IMG/VR virus record: IMGVR_UViG_3300020720_000005 | Span: 1 to 64,000 of that record | Direction: 5' to 3' (one strand) | Length of the DNA: 64,000 nt | Origin: a virus | Shown: positions 6,735-44,095 of the stretch, in pieces | Numbering within the stretch: the first letter of the stretch is position 1 | Layout of the letters: every line of letters begins with the position of its first letter | Translations under genes and position numbers: made by a program | The notes under the pieces: generated by a model | Told to the model about the DNA's origin: nothing | Seen by the model: only the letters and a program-made list of their open reading frames with translations | Database searches by the model: none

Positions 6735-6808
6735 TCCCGAGTGGTGTAGTGGTAGCACAACAGACTTTGACTCTGTTAGTATAAGTTCGATTCTTATTTC
6801 GGGTGCCA
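6735..6808 (+). tRNA. tRNA-Gln(TTG)
   Basis: Cloverleaf with anticodon loop CTTTGAC, T loop TTCGATT and encoded CCA. The first acceptor pair is U-U, compatible with the weak 1-72 pair usual in tRNA-Gln. Confidence 0.9.
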
Positions 6809-6810
6809 TA

Positions 6811-6880
6811 AGTGAACACATTAAGTAAATCGCAATCCGCTGGTAATGATCTGCCATGATTGTGGGTTAGTGTGTTCTCT
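6811..6880 (+). ncRNA. Structured RNA hairpin between tRNA genes
   Basis: The 14-nt arms at 6811-6824 and 6867-6880 pair over almost their whole length (one mismatch, one G-U). An inner helix pairs CGCAATC (6831-6837) with GATTGTG (6858-6864) and encloses a TGG/CCA mini-stem. There is no T arm or CCA end, so it is not a tRNA. Function unknown. Confidence 0.55.
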
Positions 6881-6883
6881 TAT

Positions 6884-6957
6884 GGGAGTATAACTTAATG
6901 GTAAAGTAGCTGGCTTTTAACCAGCAAATCAGAGTTCAATTCTCTGTACTCCTACCA
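6884..6957 (+). tRNA. tRNA-Lys(TTT)
   Basis: Acceptor GGGAGTA/TACTCCT, anticodon stem GCTGG/CCAGC with loop CTTTTAA, encoded CCA. Confidence 0.93.
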
Positions 6958-6962
6958 ATTAT

Positions 6963-7037
6963 GGTGTCTATGGTGTAGTGGTAGCACCCAACTCTGTGAA
7001 AGTTGTAGTACGAGATCGATACTCGTTAGACACCCCA
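6963..7037 (+). tRNA. tRNA-His(GTG)
   Basis: Anticodon loop CTGTGAA in the stem CAACT/AGTTG. An extra 5' G (6963) faces C73, the G-1 identity element of tRNA-His. The T loop is atypical (ATCGATA). CCA is encoded. Confidence 0.88.
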
Positions 7038-7044
7038 AGAATTT

Positions 7045-7120
7045 GCTGGTTTAGCTGATGTGGTCATAGCGGTGGTCTGAAGAGCCATTGAAAGTAGTTC
7101 GATTCTACTAGCCAGCACCA
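7045..7120 (+). tRNA. tRNA-Phe(GAA)
   Basis: Acceptor GCTGGTT/AGCCAGC, anticodon loop CTGAAGA in a stem with two G-U pairs, T loop TTCGATT, encoded CCA. Confidence 0.88.
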
Positions 7121-7124
7121 AATT

Positions 7125-7198
7125 CCTCGGATAGTTAAATGGTATAACGTATGCTTGATAAGCGTTTATTACAAGTTCGATTCTTGTTCTGAGGACCA
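7125..7198 (+). tRNA. tRNA-Ile(GAT)
   Basis: Acceptor CCTCGGA/TCTGAGG, anticodon loop TTGATAA, T loop TTCGATT, encoded CCA. The anticodon stem is weak (four pairs, one of them G-U). Confidence 0.85.
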
Positions 7199-7199
7199 T

Positions 7200-7273
7200 G
7201 CCCTATTAGTATAATGGTATTACACCTGTTTTGTAATCAGGTTACGGCAGTTCGATTCTGTCATGGGGCACCA
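7200..7273 (+). tRNA. tRNA-Thr(TGT)
   Basis: Acceptor GCCCTAT/ATGGGGC, anticodon loop TTTGTAA with a U-U mismatch at the top of the stem, encoded CCA. Only one base separates it from tRNA-Ile. Confidence 0.88.
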
Positions 7274-7282
7274 AGTTTTTAT

Positions 7283-7359
<77 letters not shown>

Positions 7360-7365
7360 ATATAT

Positions 7366-7439
7366 GCCTCGTTAGTTTAATGGTAGAACTCTGCTTTTAC
7401 ACAGCAGTCACGGCAGTTCGATTCTGTCACGAGGTACCA
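7366..7439 (+). tRNA. tRNA-Val(TAC)
   Basis: Acceptor GCCTCGT/ACGAGGT, anticodon CTGCT/AGCAG with loop TTTACAC, encoded CCA. Confidence 0.92.
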
Positions 7440-7441
7440 AT

Positions 7442-7516
7442 GCCCCATTAGTACAATGAATAGTATACGGTGCTACGAACGCTGAGAAGGTGGTTTGATT
7501 CCATCATGGGGTACCA
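7442..7516 (+). tRNA. tRNA-Arg(ACG)
   Basis: Acceptor GCCCCAT/ATGGGGT, anticodon loop CTACGAA in stem CGGTG/CGCTG, encoded CCA. A34 would need deamination to inosine, presumably by host TadA, to read CGU/CGC/CGA. Confidence 0.87.
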
Positions 7517-7524
7517 AAGTTTAT

Positions 7525-7619
7525 GGAGAGTAATGCAGGGGAGTTGGTTCCCCGACCAGCCTTGAAAACTGGGTTCTGCTGACGAAGTGGATGGGGTTCG
7601 ACTCCTCTGCTCTCCGCCA
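7525..7619 (+). tRNA. tRNA-Ser(TGA)
   Basis: A class II tRNA with a long variable arm; acceptor GGAGAGT/GCTCTCC, anticodon loop CTTGAAA, encoded CCA. Confidence 0.9.
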
Positions 7620-7655
7620 ATAACCCTATAAAGTAAAAGGGATTAAAAATATCGC

Positions 7656-7684
7656 TTTACTTTTATAGTTAAATGATGTATAAT
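7656..7684 (+). promoter_or_regulatory. Sigma70-like promoter
   Basis: TTTACT (7656-7661), 17-bp spacer, TATAAT (7679-7684). It lies within a 28-bp block (7639-7666) repeated exactly at 8820-8847. It drives the phosphoesterase gene, which has a normal leader and an AAAGGAAG ribosome binding site. Confidence 0.82.
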
Positions 7685-7709
7685 AGTGTCTTGATAAGAA
7701 AGGAAGTAT

Positions 7710-8291
7710 ATGCCAAGTGTATTCTTAGTAAGCGATACGCACTTCGGTCACGCTGGTGTATGCCGATTCACTGAAGTTGACGGAGTCACAAAGATTCGCC
7801 CATGGACTGATCCAGATGAAATGGATGAGGCAATGGTAAAGATGTGGAACGAAACTGTAAAGCCAACCGATAAAGTTTATCATCTTGGTGACGTAGTTAT
7901 CAATCGTAAAGCATTGGGAATTATGCGTAGATTGAATGGTGATAAAGTTTTGATTCGTGGTAACCATGACATCTTTCGAGATGATGAGTACCGTGAACAC
8001 TTTCGTGAGTTGCGTGCATATCACGTAATGAATGGAATGATCTTAAGCCATATACCTATTCATGAGGAATCGTTGGGTAGGTTCGGTGTTAACATTCATG
8101 GTCACTTACACACAAATCGTGTAATGCTTCGTGGATTTAACAACAAGCCAACTGAGATTGATACTCGTTACCACTGCGTCTGCGTCGAACAAACAGACTT
8201 CAGACCCATCTTGTTTGAAGACGTGATTAAAAGAATCAAAGACGAGGGTGGTACCGTAGGATTCAAAAACGGTAACGGACCAACGATGTAA
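7710..8291 (+). CDS. Calcineurin-like metallophosphoesterase
   Basis: A 193-residue phosphoesterase with the full set of dimetal motifs: DTHFGH (about 9-14), GD in HLGDVV, GNHD (RGNHDIF) and the C-terminal HGHLH. Members act on phosphodiesters such as nucleotides or RNA ends; the substrate is not evident. It is embedded inside the tRNA bank with its own promoter. An RNA-processing or RNA-repair role is possible on position alone, and that is only inference. Confidence 0.88.
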   Translation: MPSVFLVSDTHFGHAGVCRFTEVDGVTKIRPWTDPDEMDEAMVKMWNETVKPTDKVYHLGDVVINRKALGIMRRLNGDKVLIRGNHDIFRDDEYREHFRELRAYHVMNGMILSHIPIHEESLGRFGVNIHGHLHTNRVMLRGFNNKPTEIDTRYHCVCVEQTDFRPILFEDVIKRIKDEGGTVGFKNGNGPTM

Positions 8292-8294
8292 CTT

Positions 8295-8381
8295 GGAAGA
8301 TGTGTTGCAAGGTGCGACAGGGGTTTGCTAAACCCTCGTTCAGAAATGGGCTGATAGGTTCGATTCCTATATCTTCCGCCA
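8295..8381 (+). tRNA. tRNA-Ser(GCT)
   Basis: A class II tRNA: acceptor GGAAGAT/ATCTTCC, anticodon GGGGT/ACCCT with loop TTGCTAA, long variable arm, encoded CCA. It begins 3 nt after the phosphoesterase stop. Confidence 0.92.
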
Positions 8382-8384
8382 AAT

Positions 8385-8467
8385 GCGAGTATGATGAAAT
8401 TGGTAAACATAGAAGACTTAAAATCTTCCGCTTCGGCTTCCCAGTTCGAGTCTGGGTACTCGCACCA
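8385..8467 (+). tRNA. tRNA-Leu(TAA)
   Basis: A class II tRNA: acceptor GCGAGTA/TACTCGC, anticodon GAAGA/TCTTC with loop CTTAAAA, variable arm closed by a TTCG tetraloop, encoded CCA. Confidence 0.93.
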
Positions 8468-8474
8468 AGTTTTT

Positions 8475-8549
8475 ACGGCATTAGTATAATGGAGAATACA
8501 GTAGGCTTCTACCCTACGAATGTGGGTTCGATTCCTGCATGCCGTGCCA
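8475..8549 (+). tRNA. tRNA-Arg(TCT)
   Basis: Acceptor ACGGCAT/ATGCCGT, anticodon GTAGG/CCTAC with loop CTTCTAC, encoded CCA. Reads AGA/AGG. Confidence 0.9.
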
Positions 8550-8554
8550 GTAAT

Positions 8555-8629
8555 GGGCTGGTAGCTTAATGGTAAAGCAGTCGACTCATAATCGATTGAG
8601 TGTGAGTTCAATTCTCACCCAGCCCACCA
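8555..8629 (+). tRNA. tRNA(CAT), probably tRNA-Ile2
   Basis: Anticodon loop CTCATAA. The arm GCAGTCGACTCATAATCGA closely resembles bacterial tRNA-Ile2, whose C34 is converted to lysidine to read AUA. It therefore more likely serves Ile AUA than Met. The assignment needs a tRNA classifier. Confidence 0.85.
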
Positions 8630-8630
8630 T

Positions 8631-8711
8631 ACCTCGGTAGACAAATTGGTAAAGTCGTCTCTCTCAAAAGGAGAAATTTAAATGTGAGTTCGAATCTCAC
8701 TCGAGGTACCA
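8631..8711 (+). tRNA. tRNA-Leu(CAA)
   Basis: Class II: acceptor ACCTCGG/TCGAGGT, anticodon loop CTCAAAA, short variable arm, encoded CCA. Confidence 0.88.
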
Positions 8712-8716
8712 GATAT

Positions 8717-8791
8717 GCACGTATGACTGAATGGTAAGGTAGCAGTCTGCAAAACTGATGTTCGTAGGTTCGATTCCTACTACGTGCTCCA
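8717..8791 (+). tRNA. tRNA-Cys(GCA)
   Basis: Acceptor GCACGTA/TACGTGC, anticodon GCAGT/ACTGA with loop CTGCAAA, U73 discriminator as expected for Cys, encoded CCA. Confidence 0.93.
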
Positions 8792-8836
8792 ATCTTGCAA
8801 ATAACCCTACTTGCAATAGGGGATTAAAAATATCGC

Positions 8837-8865
8837 TTTACTTTTATTAAAAAGTGGCGTATAAT
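8837..8865 (+). promoter_or_regulatory. Sigma70-like promoter
   Basis: TTTACT (8837-8842), 17-bp spacer, TATAAT (8860-8865), partly inside the 28-bp block shared with 7639-7666. It probably drives the structured RNA at 8872-9036 and the following tRNA genes. Confidence 0.8.
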
Positions 8866-8871
8866 AAAGGT

Positions 8872-9036
8872 TCTTAGTTGATAATGTTATCTAAAAGTCC
8901 TCTCTAAGTCGTTACGTCAAGTCGGACGCATGGGGCAATGGTCTTAGTGGAGGGATATCCGTGGCAGACCTTAAACAGCCAAAACAGCAGCAGTCTATTT
9001 TTGGTGGCTACAGACTATAAAGAAAAACCACCATGT
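8872..9036 (+). ncRNA. Putative structured RNA upstream of tRNA-Glu
   Basis: No convincing coding frame. CCTC-T-CTAAG (8899-8908) pairs with CTTAG-TG-GAGG (8943-8953), and TGGTGG (9002-9007) pairs with CCACCA (9028-9033) just before tRNA-Glu. It lies directly downstream of a strong promoter. It may be a stable RNA or a tRNA precursor leader; no known RNA family recognised. Confidence 0.45.
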
Positions 9037-9112
9037 GCTCGGTTCGTCTATCGGTTAGGACACTGCCCTTTCACGGCAGTAAGGAGGGGTTCGATTCCCC
9101 CACCGAGTACCA
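9037..9112 (+). tRNA. tRNA-Glu(TTC)
   Basis: Acceptor GCTCGGT/ACCGAGT, anticodon CTGCC/GGCAG with loop CTTTCAC, T stem GGGGG-like with loop TTCGATT, encoded CCA. Confidence 0.95.
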
Positions 9113-9266
9113 GATTTAATTACATTGGGTTACCAAAACCAGTAGGTGGTTTGGGAGTTCAGGATACTCGACGGAGTGTCGCTCGCCAAACTACACGAAA
9201 GATGGAAACGAAACCGAAAGGTGGATACGGTGGTCACGCTGGAGAAAGTTGGATCATAATGTGAGA
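9113..9266 (+). other. Non-coding stretch with short hairpins
   Basis: The first part of a 430-nt gene-free gap between tRNA-Glu and tRNA-Tyr. Short helices are visible, such as CGAC/GTCG and CCAAAACCA/TGGTTTGG around 9129-9175, but no long closing stem and no credible ORF. It is probably part of the same transcript as the structured elements that follow. Confidence 0.4.
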
Positions 9267-9320
9267 AGCAACCAATCGTATGACGAATACGTGGTTAACC
9301 ATCGGGTGATGGTTGTTGCT
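9267..9320 (+). ncRNA. Three-way-junction RNA element
   Basis: The outer stem AGCAAC (9267-9272)/GTTGCT (9315-9320) encloses two perfect hairpins: CGTAT-gacga-ATACG (9277-9291) and AACCATC-gggt-GATGGTT (9297-9314). This compact fold is unlikely to be chance in a gap without genes. No known family recognised. Confidence 0.5.
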
Positions 9321-9344
9321 AATCATCCCAGTGTAATTAAATGT

Positions 9345-9540
9345 GGTATTAGTTGTATTGTTTTGGAAAAACTCTGTGCTACCAGGATAATGCACTCTCA
9401 ACGAACTGGATGTCGACTATCAAGGTTCGCGAGTTGGTGATAATGAAATCGTATCGACGGATACACTAATAAGTTATCAACGATAAAAGCAAACGATATC
9501 GGGTGAACGATATCCATAACAAAACAATACAACTAATATC
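9345..9540 (+). ncRNA. About 196-nt RNA closed by a 20-bp helix
   Basis: The segment 9345-9364 pairs with 9521-9540 over 20 consecutive positions (one G-U). Inside are two perfect hairpins, GTATC-gacg-GATAC (9451-9464) and GATATCG-ggtgaa-CGATATC (9495-9514). It ends 2 nt before tRNA-Tyr. The closed-ended rod with internal arms looks like a stable non-coding RNA of unknown family. Confidence 0.6.
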
Positions 9541-9542
9541 AT

Positions 9543-9635
9543 GGAGCAATTGATGCTATGGCGTGTGCATCGGCGGACTGTAAATCCGTCCCCTCGTGGT
9601 AAACATTCTTGGTTCGACTCCAAGTTGCTCCACCA
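9543..9635 (+). tRNA. tRNA-Tyr(GTA)
   Basis: A class II tRNA of 93 nt: acceptor GGAGCAA/TTGCTCC, anticodon loop CTGTAAA, long variable arm, encoded CCA. Confidence 0.93.
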
Positions 9636-9641
9636 TTTTTT

Positions 9642-9716
9642 GGCTCGTTCGTATAATGGTTATTACACCACTCTGTCTAAGTGGATACAGGAGTTCGATT
9701 CTCCTACGAGTCGCCA
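9642..9716 (+). tRNA. tRNA-Asp(GTC)
   Basis: Acceptor GGCTCGT/ACGAGTC, anticodon CCACT/AGTGG with loop CTGTCTA, G73 discriminator, encoded CCA. Confidence 0.93.
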
Positions 9717-9720
9717 AGTT

Positions 9721-9794
9721 TTGTGGTAAGGAAAGTAAAAGGAACATGGGCAAGTCATTGGCTAGACAATGACCAGATACCGTACCTGCCACAA
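9721..9794 (+). ncRNA. Structured RNA element between tRNA-Asp and tRNA-Asn
   Basis: TTGTGG (9721-9726) pairs with CCACAA (9789-9794), and a perfect inner hairpin GTCATTG-gctaga-CAATGAC spans 9754-9773. The size is tRNA-like, but no T arm, anticodon arm or CCA is present. It is the same design (closing helix plus an inner hairpin) as the element at 6811-6880. Confidence 0.5.
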
Positions 9795-9804
9795 TTTTAA
9801 TTAT

Positions 9805-9883
9805 TCCGCAAAACCCGAGCAAGGTGCATGGGCGTGACTGTTAATCACTGGTTAGTAGAGTTCGATTCTCTAATGCGGAGCCA
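9805..9883 (+). tRNA. tRNA-Asn(GTT)
   Basis: Anticodon loop CTGTTAA in stem GTGA/TCAC, T loop TTCGATT, G73 discriminator, encoded CCA. The D arm region is longer than usual. Confidence 0.88.
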
Positions 9884-9901
9884 TATAAGTAGATAAGTTA
9901 T

Positions 9902-9979
9902 AGCGGAGTATGGAAGTGGTCTATCCGTCTGGTCTCATAAGCCATGAAATCGTTGGTTCGAATCCAACCTCCGCAACCA
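9902..9979 (+). tRNA. tRNA(CAT), initiator-like tRNA-fMet
   Basis: Aligned with bacterial initiator tRNA, A1 (9902) faces A72. This leaves the first pair open, the hallmark needed for formylation. The end CTCCGCAACCA and the CTCATAA loop also match fMet tRNAs. The three G-C pairs of the anticodon stem are only partly kept (GG/CC plus U-G). Confidence 0.82.
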
Positions 9980-9986
9980 AATGAAT

Positions 9987-10069
9987 GCCCCGATGGTGGA
10001 ATTGGTAGACACGCTGGTCTTAGAAGCCAGTACTTCGGTGTGAGAGTTCGAGTCTCTCTTGGGGCACCA
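9987..10069 (+). tRNA. tRNA-Leu(TAG)
   Basis: Class II: acceptor GCCCCGA/TTGGGGC, anticodon CTGGT/GCCAG with loop CTTAGAA, variable arm, encoded CCA. Confidence 0.93.
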
Positions 10070-10249
10070 TTGTTGAACGTGTGAGCAAAAGATAGGGCAT
10101 CCCAACTGTTAGGGAAGATAATCGCCAGTCAAAACAGCGTCCTTTATTCGGAGAGAATTTATGGCTACCCACCATAGATTGAAATGCTTGAGGATCTGGT
10201 GGCAGGAATTTAAAGCTGCCAACTAAACACATAACAGTACGTTCAACAA
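10070..10249 (+). ncRNA. 180-nt RNA closed by a perfect 11-bp helix
   Basis: TTGTTGAACGT (10070-10080) is exactly complementary to ACGTTCAACAA (10239-10249). Inside, GGCAG/CTGCC (10201-10220) and smaller stems are visible. It fills the whole space between tRNA-Leu and tRNA-Met. The rod shape and size recall 6S RNA, but I see no conserved 6S bubble sequence, so the family is open. Confidence 0.58.
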
Positions 10250-10250
10250 T

Positions 10251-10325
10251 GGTGACGTAGCACAGCGGTAGTGCATCTCCTTCATACGGAGCAGGTCAGT
10301 GGCTCGAATCCACTCGTCACCACCA
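10251..10325 (+). tRNA. tRNA-Met(CAT), elongator-like
   Basis: Acceptor GGTGACG/CGTCACC followed by TAGC, like elongator tRNA-Met; anticodon CTCC/GGAG with loop TTCATAC, encoded CCA. Confidence 0.88.
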
Positions 10326-10330
10326 GTTTT

Positions 10331-10404
10331 GGGGGATTAGTATAATGGGATTACGGCAGCTTTGCAAGCTGTTTATGGGAGTTCGATTCTCCCATCCTCC
10401 ACCA
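10331..10404 (+). tRNA. tRNA-Ala(TGC)
   Basis: Acceptor GGGGGAT/ATCCTCC with a G3-U70 pair, the major Ala identity element; anticodon GCAGC/GCTGT with loop TTTGCAA, encoded CCA. Confidence 0.94.
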
Positions 10405-10410
10405 TATTAT

Positions 10411-10485
10411 GCAGGATTAATTCAGTGGTAGAATGTTTCGTTGCCAACGAAAATGTCATCGGTTCGAACCCGATATCCTGCTCCA
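10411..10485 (+). tRNA. tRNA-Gly(GCC)
   Basis: Acceptor GCAGGAT/ATCCTGC, anticodon TTTCG/CGAAA with loop TTGCCAA, U73 discriminator, encoded CCA. Confidence 0.93.
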
Positions 10486-10492
10486 GTGTTTT

Positions 10493-10568
10493 GCCCTTGT
10501 AGCTCATTTGGTAGAGCAACTGATTAGTAATCAGTAGGTGGGCGGTTCGAATCCGTCCAAGGGCACCA
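10493..10568 (+). tRNA. tRNA-Thr(AGT)
   Basis: A canonical cloverleaf with anticodon ACTGA/TCAGT and loop TTAGTAA. The rest resembles bacterial tRNA-Thr(TGT), so the wobble base looks changed from T to A. A34 in tRNA-Thr is unusual in bacteria. CCA is encoded. Confidence 0.9.
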
Positions 10569-10599
10569 GTTTAATAAAATGTTAAAAAATCTAACTTAT

Positions 10600-10606
10600 C
10601 TAAATA
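10600..10606 (+). promoter_or_regulatory. Putative late promoter CTAAATA
   Basis: CTAAATA matches the cyanophage form of the T4 late promoter (gp55-dependent, no -35 box). It lies 22 nt before the glycosyltransferase start. Confidence 0.45.
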
Positions 10607-10627
10607 GAGATATGTTAAATGCTATGA

Positions 10628-11683
10628 ATGATAAAAATGTCAAGAGTGTTATTCGTTTTAAAACGTAAAGATGATTATAATGTTGAACGTGATAATCATA
10701 TTGGATTAAGCACAGGGTTATACAACTCTGCAAAATTTATGGATACAATGCTCAACGATATTGGTATTGAATCAAAATTAGTAGTTGTTCCTGACAATAA
10801 TTCAATTGATAGAGAAGTAAGCATATACAAACCAACCCATGTTATTATTGAAGCATTATGGGTTGTTCCACAAAAGTTTAATATTCTCCAGAAACTACAT
10901 CCAAAAGTAACATGGATCATTAGATTCCATAGTGAGCTGCCATTCATGGCTGGGGAAGGTCCAGCAATGGATTGGATTGGGGATTACGCTGAGTTAAAAA
11001 ATGTTGTTCTTGCATTTAATGCGCCACGTATGTTGCGTGAAGTAAAAACATTTTTAAAGATTAAAAATCCAGTTAGAATTTGGGATTATCGTGTTGTTTA
11101 TTTACCAAATTTCTACCCACAAAATTTTAAACGCAGAGAAATCAACAGAGATAAAGAATATATTGATATTGGTTGCTTTGGTGCAGTTAGACCATTGAAG
11201 AATCATTTAGTTCAAGCAATCGCTGCAATAGATTTTGCAAATAGTATTAATAAAAAGTTGAGATTTCACGTAAATGCAGGTAGAATTGAAATGCAAGGTG
11301 CTGCTGCGGTTTCAAATTTAAAAGGCTTGTTTCAGCATCTATATGAACATGGACATCAAATGATTAACCATCAATGGACTCCTAGAGAAAAATTTTTAGA
11401 ACTATGTTCACAGATGGACATTGGGATGCAGTGTAACTTCTCTGAAACTTTTAATATTGTTGGAGCAGATTTGATTAGTCAAGGTGTTCCATTGATTGGT
11501 AGCAAAGAAATACCATGGCAGATTATGGGTAAATGTGAACCTACTGATAGTAATGATATTAAATTTGGACTGAAGAACGCATATAACCATCCAAAGTTAA
11601 ATGTTATGTTAAATCAAATAGCATTAAAACGCTACACAGAAAATACCAAAGAAATTTGGAAAACTTATTTTAAAGGAAAATAA
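10628..11683 (+). CDS. GT4-like glycosyltransferase
   Basis: A 351-residue protein with an overall GT-B glycosyltransferase look: an N-terminal Rossmann-like half (SRVLFVLKRK, then a small-residue loop), the C-terminal domain start DIGCFGAVRPLKN (about 178-190), and a donor-site-like segment SETFNIVGADLISQGVPLIGS (about 275-295), where the usual E-x7-E motif is modified. It could glycosylate phage DNA, a virion protein or the envelope. It sits between tRNA genes and the oxygenase cassette. A start three codons downstream (10637) is also possible. Confidence 0.68.
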   Translation: MIKMSRVLFVLKRKDDYNVERDNHIGLSTGLYNSAKFMDTMLNDIGIESKLVVVPDNNSIDREVSIYKPTHVIIEALWVVPQKFNILQKLHPKVTWIIRFHSELPFMAGEGPAMDWIGDYAELKNVVLAFNAPRMLREVKTFLKIKNPVRIWDYRVVYLPNFYPQNFKRREINRDKEYIDIGCFGAVRPLKNHLVQAIAAIDFANSINKKLRFHVNAGRIEMQGAAAVSNLKGLFQHLYEHGHQMINHQWTPREKFLELCSQMDIGMQCNFSETFNIVGADLISQGVPLIGSKEIPWQIMGKCEPTDSNDIKFGLKNAYNHPKLNVMLNQIALKRYTENTKEIWKTYFKGK

Positions 11684-11881
11684 ATGAAACATAAAGTAAA
11701 AATTCATCGTTGGATTAATGGTTTTTTAAAAATTGATAACCATGAATTAGAAACTCTAGAAGAAGCATTAGATTTTGCTCGTCATGCAACTGAAAATGTT
11801 ACACATACAGCAAAAATTTATGATGACGTAGGAGAATTAGTCCATACAATCGCGGATCAAAATTTAAATACATACGCTTAA
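11684..11881 (+). CDS. Small conserved-looking phage protein
   Basis: A 65-residue protein (MKHKVKIHRWINGFLKI start, then EALDFARHATENVTHTAKIYDDVGELV). The pattern of a beta hairpin followed by a helix is common for short T4-like phage proteins that look ubiquitin- or ferredoxin-like. It starts immediately after the glycosyltransferase stop. Function unknown. Confidence 0.62.
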   Translation: MKHKVKIHRWINGFLKIDNHELETLEEALDFARHATENVTHTAKIYDDVGELVHTIADQNLNTYA

Positions 11882-11882
11882 T

Positions 11883-11956
11883 ATCTCGATAGTGTAATGG
11901 CAGCATACCAGTCTCCAAAACTGTTGGTCGGGGTTCGAGTCCCTGTCGGGATGCCA
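11883..11956 (+). tRNA. tRNA-Trp(CCA)
   Basis: Acceptor ATCTCGA/TCGGGAT, anticodon CCAGT/ACTGT with loop CTCCAAA, G73, encoded CCA. Confidence 0.93.
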
Positions 11957-11959
11957 ATT

Positions 11960-12033
11960 GCGGGGTTAGTTTAATGGTAAAACTACAGATTTCCAATCTG
12001 TTGTTGAGAGTTCGATTCTCTCACTCCGCTCCA
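11960..12033 (+). tRNA. tRNA-Gly(TCC)
   Basis: Acceptor GCGGGGT/ACTCCGC, anticodon ACAGA/TCTGT with loop TTTCCAA, U73, encoded CCA. The last tRNA of the bank. Confidence 0.93.
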
Positions 12034-33269: not shown

Positions 33270-33843
33270 AAATACAGACCCACAAGGTTGGGTTGCTTCT
33301 ATGAATAAAACTTTTCCTAATTATGGTATTGATCAACCCCATCGTATTGCAGCATTTCTTGCTCAATGTGGTCATGAGTCAGGTGGATGGGCTATCTTTG
33401 AAGAAAATTTAAATTACTCAGCGCAAGGTTTAATGGGTATTTTTGGTTCGCATTTCCATGGAGATGCTGATCAATATGCTCGTCAACCAGAAAAGATTGC
33501 CAATAGAATCTATGCTAACCGAATGGGCAATGGCGATGAAGCATCTGGTGATGGTTGGAAATATCGTGGACGTGGTCCAATTCAGTTAACTGGTAAAGCC
33601 AATTATACTAAGTTTGCGCAAGATATGTTTGATGACTGGCAAAATTTACTTGATAACCCAGACTGGGTAACGTATGATAAAGATTTCGCTTTAATGTCTG
33701 CGATTTGGTTCTGGAATGCACATAATCTTAATCACTATGCTGATATTGGTGATATTAAAACTATGACTAAGATTATCAATGGTGGTTATCTTGGTCTTGA
33801 TGAACGACAACAATTATATAATCAGATTATTCAATACGTTTAA
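33232..33843 (+). CDS. GH19 endolysin
   Basis: A 203-residue GH19 (chitinase-like) lysozyme that would cleave the glycan strands of peptidoglycan at lysis. It has CGHESGGW with the catalytic glutamate at E49, FEENLNYSAQGLMGIF, and the family signature GRGPIQLTGKANY (about 108-120). No signal peptide, so export would need the holin found at 44098. I start it at 33232 because the domain begins there (MITAEQFAQIF) and GGAGTG precedes it. Confidence 0.9.
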   Translation: MITAEQFAQIFPRNTDPQGWVASMNKTFPNYGIDQPHRIAAFLAQCGHESGGWAIFEENLNYSAQGLMGIFGSHFHGDADQYARQPEKIANRIYANRMGNGDEASGDGWKYRGRGPIQLTGKANYTKFAQDMFDDWQNLLDNPDWVTYDKDFALMSAIWFWNAHNLNHYADIGDIKTMTKIINGGYLGLDERQQLYNQIIQYV

Positions 33844-34496
33844 TGAAAACATTTATACATCATGATATCGCTAAACTTGAACGTGATACATCCCCCGATG
33901 GCACAAGAGTATATAAAACGCCATCGGGTAAATCCTATCCCTCCGTTACGACAGTTACAGGACTGCACTCAGCAAAAGGGATCGCAGAATGGAGAAAACG
34001 AGTTGGCGAAGCAGAAGCAAATAAAATCTCTGGAAGAGCCTCAGCAAGAGGAACGAGGATTCACCAGTATTGTGAAGACTATTTACGAGGAAACCTATTC
34101 GAAGCAGATATGTTCGACCTCCAAATGTTCAACTCTATCAAACCCCTCCTTGACCAAGTTGACAACATCCACTGCTTGGAAACTCCATTATGGTCTGACC
34201 ATTTACAAGTCGCTGGCACAGTTGACTGCATCGCAGAGTTCCAAGGTAAACTTAGTGTTATAGATTTTAAAACATCAAGCAAACCAAAAGATAGAGATGA
34301 CATTCATAACTACTTTATGCAAACTGCAGCATATGCAGTAGCTTTTGAAGAAAGAACAGGAATTCCTATCGGAAGACTTGTTATTATTATGGCAGTTGAT
34401 AATGATGATCCAAGATGGTTTATAGAAAAAAGAGACAATTGGATTGGTGGGTTTAGAAAGTTAAGATTAGATTACAAAAATTTAAAAAATATTTGA
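33843..34496 (+). CDS. PD-(D/E)XK exonuclease (RecB/Cas4/MGME1-like)
   Basis: A 217-residue nuclease of the PDDEXK superfamily. RGTRIHQYCEDYL (about 70-82) carries the motif-I histidine, AGTVDCIAEFQGKLSVIDFKTSSK holds the D...(D)xK catalytic core, and QTAAYAVAFEE is the QxxxY motif. It probably degrades single-stranded or linear host DNA, or helps phage recombination. It overlaps the endolysin stop by one base. Confidence 0.87.
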   Translation: MKTFIHHDIAKLERDTSPDGTRVYKTPSGKSYPSVTTVTGLHSAKGIAEWRKRVGEAEANKISGRASARGTRIHQYCEDYLRGNLFEADMFDLQMFNSIKPLLDQVDNIHCLETPLWSDHLQVAGTVDCIAEFQGKLSVIDFKTSSKPKDRDDIHNYFMQTAAYAVAFEERTGIPIGRLVIIMAVDNDDPRWFIEKRDNWIGGFRKLRLDYKNLKNI

Positions 34497-34503
34497 GGAT
34501 AAA

Positions 34504-34737
34504 ATGATTTTGTTTAAAACTAAATTTTATGAAAAAACAATGCGCTCATTGGGTAAAGTTGTTACATGGCGTATTCTTGTTACGATTACTAATTTTATTG
34601 GTGGTTACTTAGCATCAGGATCTTGGATGGTTGGTTTGGGTGTAGTTTCTTTTGCGCTCGTAGTTAACTCAATTCTATATTTCTTTCATGAACGTGCATG
34701 GAATGTAATTGATGTTGGTAAAGAAGTTAAAGAATAA
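34504..34737 (+). CDS. DUF2061-type membrane protein
   Basis: A 77-residue protein with the DUF2061 pattern: SLGKVVTWRILVTITNFIGGY, a second hydrophobic helix GLGVVSFALVVNSILYF and the ending HERAWNVI. It has two membrane helices; function unknown. Its stop overlaps the -35 box of the tmRNA promoter. Confidence 0.78.
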   Translation: MILFKTKFYEKTMRSLGKVVTWRILVTITNFIGGYLASGSWMVGLGVVSFALVVNSILYFFHERAWNVIDVGKEVKE

Positions 34738-34738
34738 T

Positions 34739-34767
34739 TTGACATTTTAAACTATATAATGTATAAT
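34739..34767 (+). promoter_or_regulatory. Consensus sigma70 promoter of the tmRNA gene
   Basis: TTGACA (34739-34744), 17-bp spacer, TATAAT (34762-34767): perfect consensus at both boxes. The strength fits a stable RNA gene. Confidence 0.9.
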
Positions 34768-35009
34768 AGTGATATGGTTGTATGAAGCAACTAGAAAAGT
34801 GTTCTGGACGGGAGTTCGATTCTCCCCACCTCCACCAAAAGTATATTGACGAACCGAGTTATCGGTAGCAAACATAGAAACTGTGGCAATATACTTCTGA
34901 TGGGGGTGACTAGGTTTCGACAGGGCAACAAGTACAGAAGTGGACAACTTGGCAATGTGAAAGCCATTAGGATTGGGGAAACTCGGTCGAAGAAGCAAAA
35001 AACGTAAAC

Positions 35010-35042
35010 GCAAACGACGAACTGTTCGCATTAGCAGCCTAA
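35010..35042 (+). other. tmRNA tag-peptide reading frame
   Basis: GCA resume codon to TAA encodes ANDELFALAA, a standard proteolysis tag with the ALAA end recognised by ClpXP-type proteases. It sits in the context AAACGCAAACGACGAA, as in bacterial tmRNAs. Confidence 0.93.
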
Positions 35043-35059
35043 ACACTGCTTAGGGTTTC

Positions 35060-35096
35060 GGTAACTTTCCTCGTAACAGAATAAGTTACCATTTTT
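35060..35096 (+). terminator. Terminator of the tmRNA gene
   Basis: GGTAACTT (35060-35067) pairs with AAGTTACC (35083-35090), followed by ATTTTT. It may double as a structural helix of the tmRNA coding piece. Confidence 0.7.
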
Positions 35097-35119
35097 AAAT
35101 TTAAAAAGGAAGTTAATTT

Positions 35120-35575
35120 ATGAAACATTTAGTTCTAGTTGCTGCTTTAATGGCAGCATTTTCTGCCCAAGCATTTGAGGTTGGTGTTACTGGGAGTTAT
35201 GATAACGCAAAACATGATCAAACAGGTTATGGCGTAACTGTTGGTGAACATTTTGGTAAATTTAGCGCAACTGCTGGATTTGATCGTTATAGCAAAGATA
35301 GTTTAAACAAATATAGTATCATTGGTGGTTATGATGTTGCTCAAATTGGCTCTGCAACTTTAACTGCTAAAATTGGTGCAGTATACCTTGATCAAGAAAA
35401 TTCAAAATATTATTCCGATCGTTCTGGCTATGCTGGCGTAGTTGGTGCTGGTGTATCAATCCCAGTAACAAAATCTGTTGCTGCTACTGTTGATTATCGT
35501 TATCAGGCTGGACAATCTCGTGTTGATAACTTAAATGGATCAACTGTATTGGTTGGCGCAAAGTACGCATTTTAA
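35120..35575 (+). CDS. Outer-membrane beta-barrel-like protein
   Basis: A 151-residue protein with a signal peptide (MKHLVLVAALMAAFSAQA), then alternating-hydrophobic beta strands (about eight) rich in Gly/Tyr/Ser, and a C-terminal aromatic residue (GAKYAF) as required for outer-membrane barrel insertion. It looks like a small OmpA/Opa-type barrel. A phage copy could mask or replace a receptor, causing superinfection exclusion; that is inference. An AAAAAGGAAG ribosome binding site precedes it. Confidence 0.75.
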   Translation: MKHLVLVAALMAAFSAQAFEVGVTGSYDNAKHDQTGYGVTVGEHFGKFSATAGFDRYSKDSLNKYSIIGGYDVAQIGSATLTAKIGAVYLDQENSKYYSDRSGYAGVVGAGVSIPVTKSVAATVDYRYQAGQSRVDNLNGSTVLVGAKYAF

Positions 35576-35576
35576 T

Positions 35577-35843
35577 ATGGAAATTAAACCACTGAGAAAA
35601 ATGGTTTTGGTCGCTGAAAATGCAGTTGACCAAACCACTGAATCTGGAATTATTTTAGATGGAACAACATCTAATCGTAATTCAAAAACAGGTACAGTAT
35701 TAGCAATAGGTTCTGAAGTTACCGCAGTTAATGTTGGTGACAAAATTTATTTGGAATGGAATAAAGGTCAAGTCGTTAAGATTGATGATGCTCAACGTGT
35801 AATGATTAAAGAAGAATTTATTGTTGCAGTGGTTGATGCATGA
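35577..35843 (+). CDS. GroES-like co-chaperonin (gp31-like role)
   Basis: An 88-residue protein with the Cpn10 pattern: IKPLRKMVLVAEN at the start, a mobile-loop-like TTESGIILDGTTSNRN, then KTGTVLAIGSEV, VNVGDKIYLEW and the final EEFIVAVV strand. It would cap host GroEL, as T4 gp31 does for folding of the capsid protein. I start it at 35577, one base after the barrel gene stop. Confidence 0.82.
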   Translation: MEIKPLRKMVLVAENAVDQTTESGIILDGTTSNRNSKTGTVLAIGSEVTAVNVGDKIYLEWNKGQVVKIDDAQRVMIKEEFIVAVVDA

Positions 35844-36941: not shown

Positions 36942-37544
36942 ATGCGTATATACCGTATATACATACCAATAATATTATTATTCTTAAGCGTTATATTATT
37001 AACAAAAAATATGTTTTCTGATGCGATGTTGCTTGATGTAAGTTATAACCAATTAACTAAAGAAACTCAACAACAAATCGATTGTCTTGCTGAAAATATT
37101 TACCATGAAGCTGGCTATGAATCCAGAGAAGGTAAAGAAGCAGTTGCGCTTGTTACACTTAATAGGACACAGGATCCTAGATTCCCAAAAGATATATGTG
37201 GGGTTGTTAAACAGAAAACAACTTCAGTTTGTCAGTTTTCTTGGTTTTGTCAAAATACTTCTATAAAAAATAAAGATGTATATGAAGACGCAAAAGAAGT
37301 AGCAGTTTATGTCTATGCTAATTATGAAAATTTAAAAGACATTACAAAAGGTGCATTATACTATCATGCAGATTATGTAAATCCAAAATGGAAACTCGAA
37401 AAGACTACTGTAATAGGTAGACATATTTTTTATAAAGAAAGTGGAAAATACTATGATGACAAAAATGAATCTGCAACTCAAGGAAGAACAATCAAAACAT
37501 TCCTTTCTTCTTCTGATGGAGGAGATTACTCTAACCAGCGTTAA
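36942..37544 (+). CDS. Membrane-anchored SleB/CwlJ-type cell wall hydrolase
   Basis: A 200-residue protein with an N-terminal membrane anchor (about residues 6-22) and a Hydrolase_2/SleB domain: LAENIYHEAGYESREGKEAVALVTLNR with the catalytic glutamate in YHEA, then VCQFSW, ALYYHADY and IGRHIFYK. It would cut peptidoglycan from the periplasmic side. The C-terminal 30 residues are polar and overlap the ClpP-like gene by 92 bp. Confidence 0.85.
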   Translation: MRIYRIYIPIILLFLSVILLTKNMFSDAMLLDVSYNQLTKETQQQIDCLAENIYHEAGYESREGKEAVALVTLNRTQDPRFPKDICGVVKQKTTSVCQFSWFCQNTSIKNKDVYEDAKEVAVYVYANYENLKDITKGALYYHADYVNPKWKLEKTTVIGRHIFYKESGKYYDDKNESATQGRTIKTFLSSSDGGDYSNQR

Positions 37545-38010
37545 GACTGCGGTTGAGTGGATCTTTGAAGCCAATTTTGCAGAAGAGCGTCCAGAATTAC
37601 TTAATTTAATTATTACAAGTCCAGGTGGTGATTTGAATGCAGCATTTGCTTTGATCGACACTATGCGTGGTTCTGCTATTCCAATTCGAACAATTGGTCT
37701 TGGTCAGATTGCTTCAGCTGGACTTATGATTTTTATTGCTGGTGATAAGGGTCATCGTTTGTTGACACCAAATACTTCTATCTTGAGTCATCAATACTCA
37801 TGGGGTGCATTTGGTAAAGAACATGAATTATTTGCCACTGTTAAAGAGTTTGACTTAACAACTAAGAAAATGATTAATCATTATAAAAAATGTACTGGTT
37901 TATCTGAAACAAAAATTAGAGAGGTATTGTTGCCACCTCAAGATATTTGGTTAAGCGCAACCGAATCAAAAAAATTAGGACTATGCGACGATGTTAAAGA
38001 ACTTTCTTGA
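37453..38010 (+). CDS. clpP: ClpP-like serine protease
   Basis: A protein of about 185 residues of peptidase family S14: IITSPGGDLNAAFALIDTM, nucleophile S88 (GQIASAGLM) and catalytic histidine H113 (ILSHQYS). The start is uncertain because the frame is open back into the hydrolase gene. I prefer the ATG at 37453 with GGAA upstream; GTG 37441 and ATG 37465 are alternatives. Phage ClpP-like enzymes may process proheads or divert host Clp ATPases. Confidence 0.85.
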   Translation: MMTKMNLQLKEEQSKHSFLLLMEEITLTSVKTAVEWIFEANFAEERPELLNLIITSPGGDLNAAFALIDTMRGSAIPIRTIGLGQIASAGLMIFIAGDKGHRLLTPNTSILSHQYSWGAFGKEHELFATVKEFDLTTKKMINHYKKCTGLSETKIREVLLPPQDIWLSATESKKLGLCDDVKELS

Positions 38011-39099: not shown

Positions 39100-39307
39100 A
39101 TCTTCAAACGATTTTTCGCTCCATATTGAACAGATTGTTCGTGATAAAAAGATATCTTACATGGATGCTGTTCTTCAATATTGTAAAGAAAACTTTATTG
39201 AACCAGAAGATGTCGCAAAACTTGTAAATAAATCTCTTAAGGATAAACTTGAGGTAAATTTTCAAGATGAAAACTATTTACCTAAAAGAGCAAAACTGGA
39301 CGTGTGA
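39092..39307 (+). CDS. 33: Late promoter coactivator gp33
   Basis: A 71-residue protein resembling marine T4-like gp33: FSLHIEQIVRDKKISYMDAVLQYCKEN, then EPEDVAKLVNKSLKDKLEVNFQDENYLPKR. gp33 links the sliding clamp to host RNA polymerase at late promoters. The start at 39092 overlaps the preceding gene by 8 bp. Gene order 33-59-32 is that of T4. Confidence 0.8.
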   Translation: MFKSSNDFSLHIEQIVRDKKISYMDAVLQYCKENFIEPEDVAKLVNKSLKDKLEVNFQDENYLPKRAKLDV

Positions 39308-39915
39308 TGGATGGCTTTAAAGCATATCGTTACTATCTCGCATTAAAGTTACACTTTACCTCTGAGAAATTTAACGTCTTCGAAAACCGAGGAAATGTTA
39401 AAGGTTCACGTGAAGCATTTAATGCTCGGAATGATAGATATATTTTTGAGAAATTAGCAAGGAAGTTTGGAAACGATCGCGATATTATTCAGTTCTTTGT
39501 TGCGAATTTTGCTTATGGTAATGAGTCTGCAATTTATGCAGGTCAAGAAGCAGATGATAATCTAGCTGAATGGAATAAAAGAAAACAGAGTATTACTAAG
39601 ATTTTTATTGACGACCTTGCGTCTTTATTGACATATGTTGAGATAAATAAATTACCAACTTCTAGTATTTTTGATTTTAATTTTAATGAATACCCAGCTG
39701 CATTAAAGTTATGGCTCGGTGGTAAAATTTCAATTGAAACCCTTGTGATTGTAAATGAACTAGATCATATTATTGAACATTGGCTTGATAATACTTCTGT
39801 CCAATATATATGGAGTAGTGAATTATTACGAATAAAGAAGTTGACTGGTTTTATTAAATATGATAAAGAAAAACTACGTAAAATATTTACACATTTTGTT
39901 GAAGAACTAGATTAA
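39307..39915 (+). CDS. 59: Helicase loader gp59
   Basis: A 202-residue all-helical protein matching T4 gp59 (217 aa): FKAYRYYLALKLHFTSEKFNVFENRG, then EAFNARNDRYIFEKLARKF and IQFFVANFAYGNESAIY. gp59 loads the gp41 helicase onto gp32-coated forks. I use the ATG at 39307, which overlaps the last base of gene 33, rather than the GTG one codon earlier. Confidence 0.9.
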   Translation: MDGFKAYRYYLALKLHFTSEKFNVFENRGNVKGSREAFNARNDRYIFEKLARKFGNDRDIIQFFVANFAYGNESAIYAGQEADDNLAEWNKRKQSITKIFIDDLASLLTYVEINKLPTSSIFDFNFNEYPAALKLWLGGKISIETLVIVNELDHIIEHWLDNTSVQYIWSSELLRIKKLTGFIKYDKEKLRKIFTHFVEELD

Positions 39916-43672: not shown

Positions 43673-44095
43673 TTATTCTCCTTTAGACATATTCTTAATT
43701 AACTTATTCAACTCAGCAGTGCTACCAACAAAGATAGCATTATTCGTTACTTTATCAGCACCTTTCTTTGGTGCATCTAATTTTTGTTTTTGCTGATGTA
43801 TATCTAATAGTTGTTGGTTTACATCAGCCAATTGTTTCATAAGATTACCCACAACCTCAAAAGCACGTGGATGTTCAGATTGTTTAGCTACTTCAAGAGC
43901 AGAATATAAAGCATTCTGTCCAGTAATAAGAAGCTCGCGCAGATTTGCTCTAGTAGTTTCGTAGTCGGTTTCAATTTTACTTTCTGGTGTTTGTAGAATT
44001 TCACCAGTAGTATTATCAATCACTTCGCTTACCTCACATTTAGATTTTGGAGGTGTCATATTAAACACCTCTGATAATGTATCATCAATTTTCAT
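43673..44095 (-). CDS. 16: Small terminase subunit gp16
   Basis: A 140-residue protein with the central coiled helices of T4 gp16: DYETTRANLRELLITGQNAL, then EVAKQSEHPRAFEVVGNLMK and QLADVNQQLLDIHQQKQKL. It oligomerises as a ring and stimulates DNA packaging by gp17, which is not in the window. It is separated from gene 26 by 2 bp. Confidence 0.87.
   Translation of the reverse strand: MKIDDTLSEVFNMTPPKSKCEVSEVIDNTTGEILQTPESKIETDYETTRANLRELLITGQNALYSALEVAKQSEHPRAFEVVGNLMKQLADVNQQLLDIHQQKQKLDAPKKGADKVTNNAIFVGSTAELNKLIKNMSKGE

Follow-up and report, generated by a model that had tools for sequence, protein, structure and literature searches.

Phage-encoded two-piece tmRNAs are a known kind, of which the gene analysed here is not the first. 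In a 2022 report, 53 of them were counted among 133 distinct phage tmRNA structures, mostly aquatic; that of Methylophilales phage Melnitz was described in detail, and one was also reported for Pelagibacter phage Mosig (PMC9004378). The tmRNA database holds 79 phage sequences (PMC11915505), and reports of huge phages include some that encode both tmRNA and SmpB (PMC7162821).

We analysed a window of 64,000 nucleotides, positions 1 to 64,000 of IMG/VR virus record IMGVR_UViG_3300020720_000005 (a contig fragment of 76,565 bases), and found in it a complete circularly permuted tmRNA gene at 34739-35097. The record is T4-like: it encodes baseplate hub, wedge and tail-tube-cap proteins, gp32, gp59 and PhoH. 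By gp32 and a baseplate protein, its nearest isolates are Melnitz and the Pelagibacter phages HTVC008M and Mosig, at ~40-57% identity. A first-pass annotation of the same DNA had called a phage copy of such a gene striking, which overstates the case, since permuted tmRNAs of phages had been described before (PMC9004378) and abound in viral contigs. We found well over 150; two DNA patterns for the acceptor piece each matched at least 120 viral contigs, and of the first 123 loci ARAGORN reported a permuted tmRNA in 108 and gave no tmRNA call in 11. What is added here is that many related phages have long kept the tmRNA in one fixed slot.

Melnitz and Mosig carry a two-piece tmRNA in the same slot as the window, with a PD-(D/E)XK nuclease upstream and gp59 and other T4-like replication genes downstream. 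Their tmRNAs, however, score with the alpha_tmRNA model (RF01849), whereas that of the window is of the beta type and has a sigma70 consensus promoter. In Melnitz a glutamine riboswitch follows the tmRNA, in contrast to the window, where Rfam gave no riboswitch call. The permuted tmRNA of betaproteobacteria (RF01850) shares with the window gene the order of the pieces, sequence motifs, a promoter-like region and the style of the tag; the window gene differs from it in being phage-encoded and in having a helix that closes the spacer, which the Rfam consensus lacks. Permuted tmRNAs are also found in Stenotrophomonas phages (Menderavirus) and Xanthomonas phage Rb1. Menderavirus phage Marzo has, like the window, a beta-type gene (94.6 bits), but it lies in a different slot, inside a tRNA cluster, and the tags of the Menderavirus and Rb1 tmRNAs, unlike that of the window, are longer and have unusual ends before AA.

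Anatomy of the tmRNA gene and signs of selection

The gene and the proteins that flank its slot are laid out as follows.

33843-34496, plus strand: PD-(D/E)XK nuclease, upstream flank of the tmRNA slot (PF12705, synteny)
34739-34767, plus strand: sigma70 promoter TTGACA-N17-TATAAT, 12/12 match, predicted start near 34774-34776
34776-34837, plus strand: 3' (acceptor) piece, including the linker strand (Rfam RF04321 and RF01850 alignments, fold)
34810-34826, plus strand: T arm, within the 3' acceptor piece
34827-34837, plus strand: acceptor strand CACCTCC (34827-34833), discriminator A (34834) and CCA (34835-34837), within the 3' piece
34838-34901, plus strand: intervening segment, presumably excised, with closing helix 34839-34848 / 34887-34896 (fold)
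34902-35090, plus strand: 5' (coding) piece, 3' end predicted (Rfam alignments; acceptor stem covaries in relatives), with acceptor strand GGGGGTG (34902-34908), D-loop region GGTTTCGAC, mRNA-like part and 3' hairpin
35010-35042, plus strand: tag frame GCA AAC GAC GAA CTG TTC GCA TTA GCA GCC TAA, encoding ANDELFALAA and a stop (ARAGORN)
35060-35090, plus strand: 3' hairpin GGTAACTT...AAGTTACC around the conserved CCTCG...AGAAT loop (compensatory forms in 80 relatives)
39304-39915, plus strand: gp59-like helicase loader, downstream flank of the slot (PF08993, phrog_269, synteny)

The first-pass annotation had read this stretch as a permuted, two-piece tmRNA whose tag, ANDELFALAA, resembles permuted betaproteobacterial tags; ARAGORN and Rfam confirm the gene, and Rfam its betaproteobacterial type. 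ARAGORN called a permuted tmRNA (tmRNA*) with that tag. Rfam matched its permuted model RF04321 (tmRNA_permuted) over the full length 1-213 with 128.9 bits (cut-off 47, E 6.9e-25) and RF01850 (beta_tmRNA) over the full length 1-331 with 116.6 bits (cut-off 84, E 8.1e-35); the latter, above its gathering score, was the best in its clan and outscored the alpha and cyano models. In the RF04321 and ARAGORN results alike, the 3' acceptor piece precedes the 5' piece in the gene and is separated from it by an intervening segment. The acceptor strands, CCA and spacer limits given in that annotation were all confirmed in the sequence, and folding confirmed its 10-bp helix closing the spacer. The acceptor domain resembles that of an alanine tRNA, with a 7-bp stem containing G3-U70, a T arm and CCA, and the tag frame ends in a hydrophobic degradation tail and a stop. 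An independent contig, L079, has a 100% identical tmRNA gene within 9.7 kb of flank at 99.99%, so the window gene is not an assembly accident.

Comparison with relatives indicates which parts of this structure are kept. With the 5' strand taken at a fixed offset, all 7 pairs of the acceptor stem form in 123 of 141 distinct relatives; most of the remaining 18 resemble a one-base offset in the D loop. These 123 fully paired stems fall into 10 different sequences, in which both strands change at pairs 4, 5 and 6; the variation is underestimated because part of the set was picked with the 3' strand fixed by the search pattern. When acceptor strands were re-dealt among these 123, a mean of 69 and a maximum of 80 were fully paired. 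The G3-U70 pair, which confers alanine identity, is present in 140/141 relatives, and in the 80 genes that have the conserved loop the 3' hairpin occurs in many compensatory forms, with 6-9 bp retained. Folding of the spacer (34838-34901) gives z = -4.2, none of 200 shuffles being as stable, and in the fold of the whole precursor its closing helix sits at the end of the acceptor stem. Of 107 relatives, 93 close the spacer with a helix that reaches 7 bp or more, vs 10% of shuffles.

The tag is similarly constrained. The 47 distinct ten-codon tags share the residues A, N, D, L, A, A and the stop. At D, L, A, A and the stop all differences between the tags are synonymous, with the codons for D, L and A varying freely, and in the encoded peptide A-N-D and A-L-A-A are invariant. 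Tags of the slot genes end in AA in 148 of 150 cases and in LAA in 140, and the ARAGORN tags of permuted tmRNAs among the first 123 loci are mostly AND-x-x-[FY]-ALAA. An odd ARAGORN tag at one locus (L172, DDCKSS...) was a misread, the DNA encoding ANDEKFALAA. By stem covariation, the G3-U70 pair, synonymous-only changes in the tag and the recurrent spacer helix, the window tmRNA gene is under selection.

A fixed slot and its descent

The order of genes in the slot is fixed: PD-(D/E)XK nuclease, tmRNA, gp59, gp32. For an unbiased sample, viral loci were gathered only by their flanking gp59 and PD-(D/E)XK proteins, with no use of the tmRNA, which gave 82 distinct loci with the whole interval. 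ARAGORN found a permuted tmRNA on the same strand within the slot in 62 of these, and Rfam found three more among 12 ARAGORN-negative slot loci, giving at least 65/82. About a fifth of the loci have no tmRNA in the slot, which shows that the gene is not essential to the lineage. One such locus (L282) has an Rfam abiF RNA match at 1497-1534, just over the cut-off at 38.8 bits. The Mosig locus (L222) carries a manA RNA motif at 165-372 (64 bits).

Profiles seeded from Rfam-labelled members typed 115 of 150 slot genes as beta-like and 33 as alpha-like, with 2 left unsure. In a nuclease tree made with FastTree, which has long branches and unsure deep placement, the type changes 4 times, vs ~30 with shuffled labels. 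Distances between tmRNAs correlate with those between nucleases (Spearman 0.33; 0/1000 permutations as high), and for 72/150 genes the locus with the closest tmRNA is also among the three with the closest nucleases. The few changes of type, the correlation and the shared neighbours together indicate that the slot tmRNA has descended mostly vertically, with some exchange. We favour, with moderate confidence, the reading that the permuted tmRNA of a large group of aquatic T4-like phages, kin of Melnitz and the pelagimyophages, is old and phage-owned, kept in one place and passed on mostly vertically, and that its alpha-like and beta-like versions follow the phage tree and would not be recent grabs from the present host.

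The tag had been taken in the first-pass annotation as a hint at the host, but it is a weak one: in a scan without a positive control, none of 84,980 species genomes of bacteria and archaea matched its DNA pattern; alpha-like and beta-like genes share the slot in related phages; and Melnitz, with a Methylophilales host, has an alpha-like tmRNA. A plasmid search for the tag gave no match either. The betaproteobacteria are, in current taxonomy, the gammaproteobacterial order Burkholderiales, which includes the Methylophilaceae. From the tmRNA type and by analogy with Melnitz, a betaproteobacterium is a plausible host for the window phage.

Two further genes adjoin the tmRNA. Just upstream (34504-34737) lies a DUF2061 predicted membrane protein, which few relatives have; directly 3' (35120-35575) lies a small outer-membrane beta-barrel-like protein with a weak PF13505 match below the cut-off, which could alter the host surface.

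Expression, partners and proposed function

The promoter at 34739-34767 is the only exact TTGACA-N17-TATAAT match in the window, where 0.05 would be expected per strand. Its presence, noted in the first-pass annotation, stands, but its being striking does not: a sigma70 promoter no more than one mismatch away from the consensus precedes 44/120 slot tmRNA genes (0.35 expected), and the RF01850 model itself opens with a TTGA...TATAAT-like stretch. In nearly all of those 44 genes the -10 box lies 51-56 bases before the T-loop anchor. The perfect promoter is a family trait and not peculiar to the window gene. That annotation also proposed a role late in infection, which we found unsupported, as a promoter of the sigma70 type points to early expression; it suggests that the window tmRNA is expressed early or constitutively rather than late. 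The T4 late promoter motif TATAAATA was considered as a driver of the tmRNA and is absent there. In the 64,000-nucleotide window it occurs once, at 44095 on the minus strand, ~4.4 per strand being expected from dinucleotide content. TATAAAT was found in 17 of 120 relatives, vs 7 expected, so only a minority of them could be late.

No SmpB gene was found in the 76,565-base record, which is a fragment and in which the first-pass annotation had likewise seen none, nor in 19 other tmRNA-positive virus records, three of them >170 kb; all but two of the records are metagenomic and possibly fragments. Because of this, the phage tmRNA probably uses the SmpB of the host. The window also has 26 tRNA genes by ARAGORN, at 6735-12033, covering every amino acid except Asn and including an unusual tRNA-Thr with anticodon AGT at 10493-10568.

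We consider it very probable that the gene is a working phage copy of permuted ssrA that is processed, charged by the host and tags proteins through host SmpB, and that it is kept with the 26 tRNA genes to sustain translation. This reading builds on the observed gene structure, covariation, selection on the tag, the fixed slot and the SmpB searches that found none. A precursor would be transcribed from its own sigma70 promoter, probably early, and in its fold the spacer helix would stack with the acceptor stem. Excision of 34838-34901 by the tRNA-processing enzymes of the host would then leave a two-piece tmRNA held together by the acceptor stem and tRNA-like helices. Host AlaRS would charge it via the G3-U70 pair, and host SmpB would bring it to stalled ribosomes. 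Addition of ANDELFALAA would release the ribosome and mark the broken protein for ClpXP. The tmRNA and the 26 tRNA genes would most likely serve together as a kit for keeping translation going during the breakdown of host RNA.

It is unlikely, in our estimate, that the main role is instead selective tagging of host or phage proteins for degradation, a turnover of the proteome that would involve a phage ClpP. Tagging of host proteins is among the proposals made for Melnitz by its authors (PMC9004378), and the tails of the tags remain ClpXP-like. The window encodes an intact ClpP homologue at 37441-38010 (PF00574, E 8e-29), 2.8 kb downstream of the tmRNA between a cell-wall hydrolase gene and gp59, the Ser/His/Asp triad being kept in 9/9 aligned copies; a Cpn10/GroES-like co-chaperonin gene at 35535-35843 (PF00166, E 5.6e-15) would also fit. 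ClpP is found in many relatives and lies at most 5 kb downstream in 35/80 loci selected by their tmRNA. In the tmRNA-independent sample, however, we saw no association, with ClpP present in 27/62 loci with tmRNA vs 9/20 without (Fisher p = 1). As ClpP is no commoner with tmRNA than without, a joint tag-and-destroy module finds no support. Moreover, neither an AAA+ unfoldase (PF07724, Clp-type AAA_2, ClpX-like) nor SspB was found in the record.

Prophages carry pieces of ssrA, which is a known integration site (PMC9004378), and the gene might thus be a passenger, a host fragment acquired through imprecise excision or an attachment site and unused by the phage. This is very improbable for a complete gene with a promoter of its own, with covariation and with a conserved tag, which dozens of phages have within their core, between nuclease and gp59/gp32. 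Still less credible is a decoy that binds host SmpB or stalled ribosomes to block host trans-translation, for which the tag-less tmRNA-like RNA reported for phage DS6A (PMC11915505) is a precedent, since the tag frame and stop kept here by selection would be needless.

A working phage ssrA copy would make phage trans-translation no oddity but a trait that is common and under selection in an abundant lineage of aquatic phages. If the tmRNA is indeed phage-owned, the alphaproteobacterial look of the Melnitz tmRNA would be weak evidence for a recent host switch. Caution is called for when a phage's host is read from its tmRNA type. The relatives that have the gene and those that lack it offer a clear set for testing.
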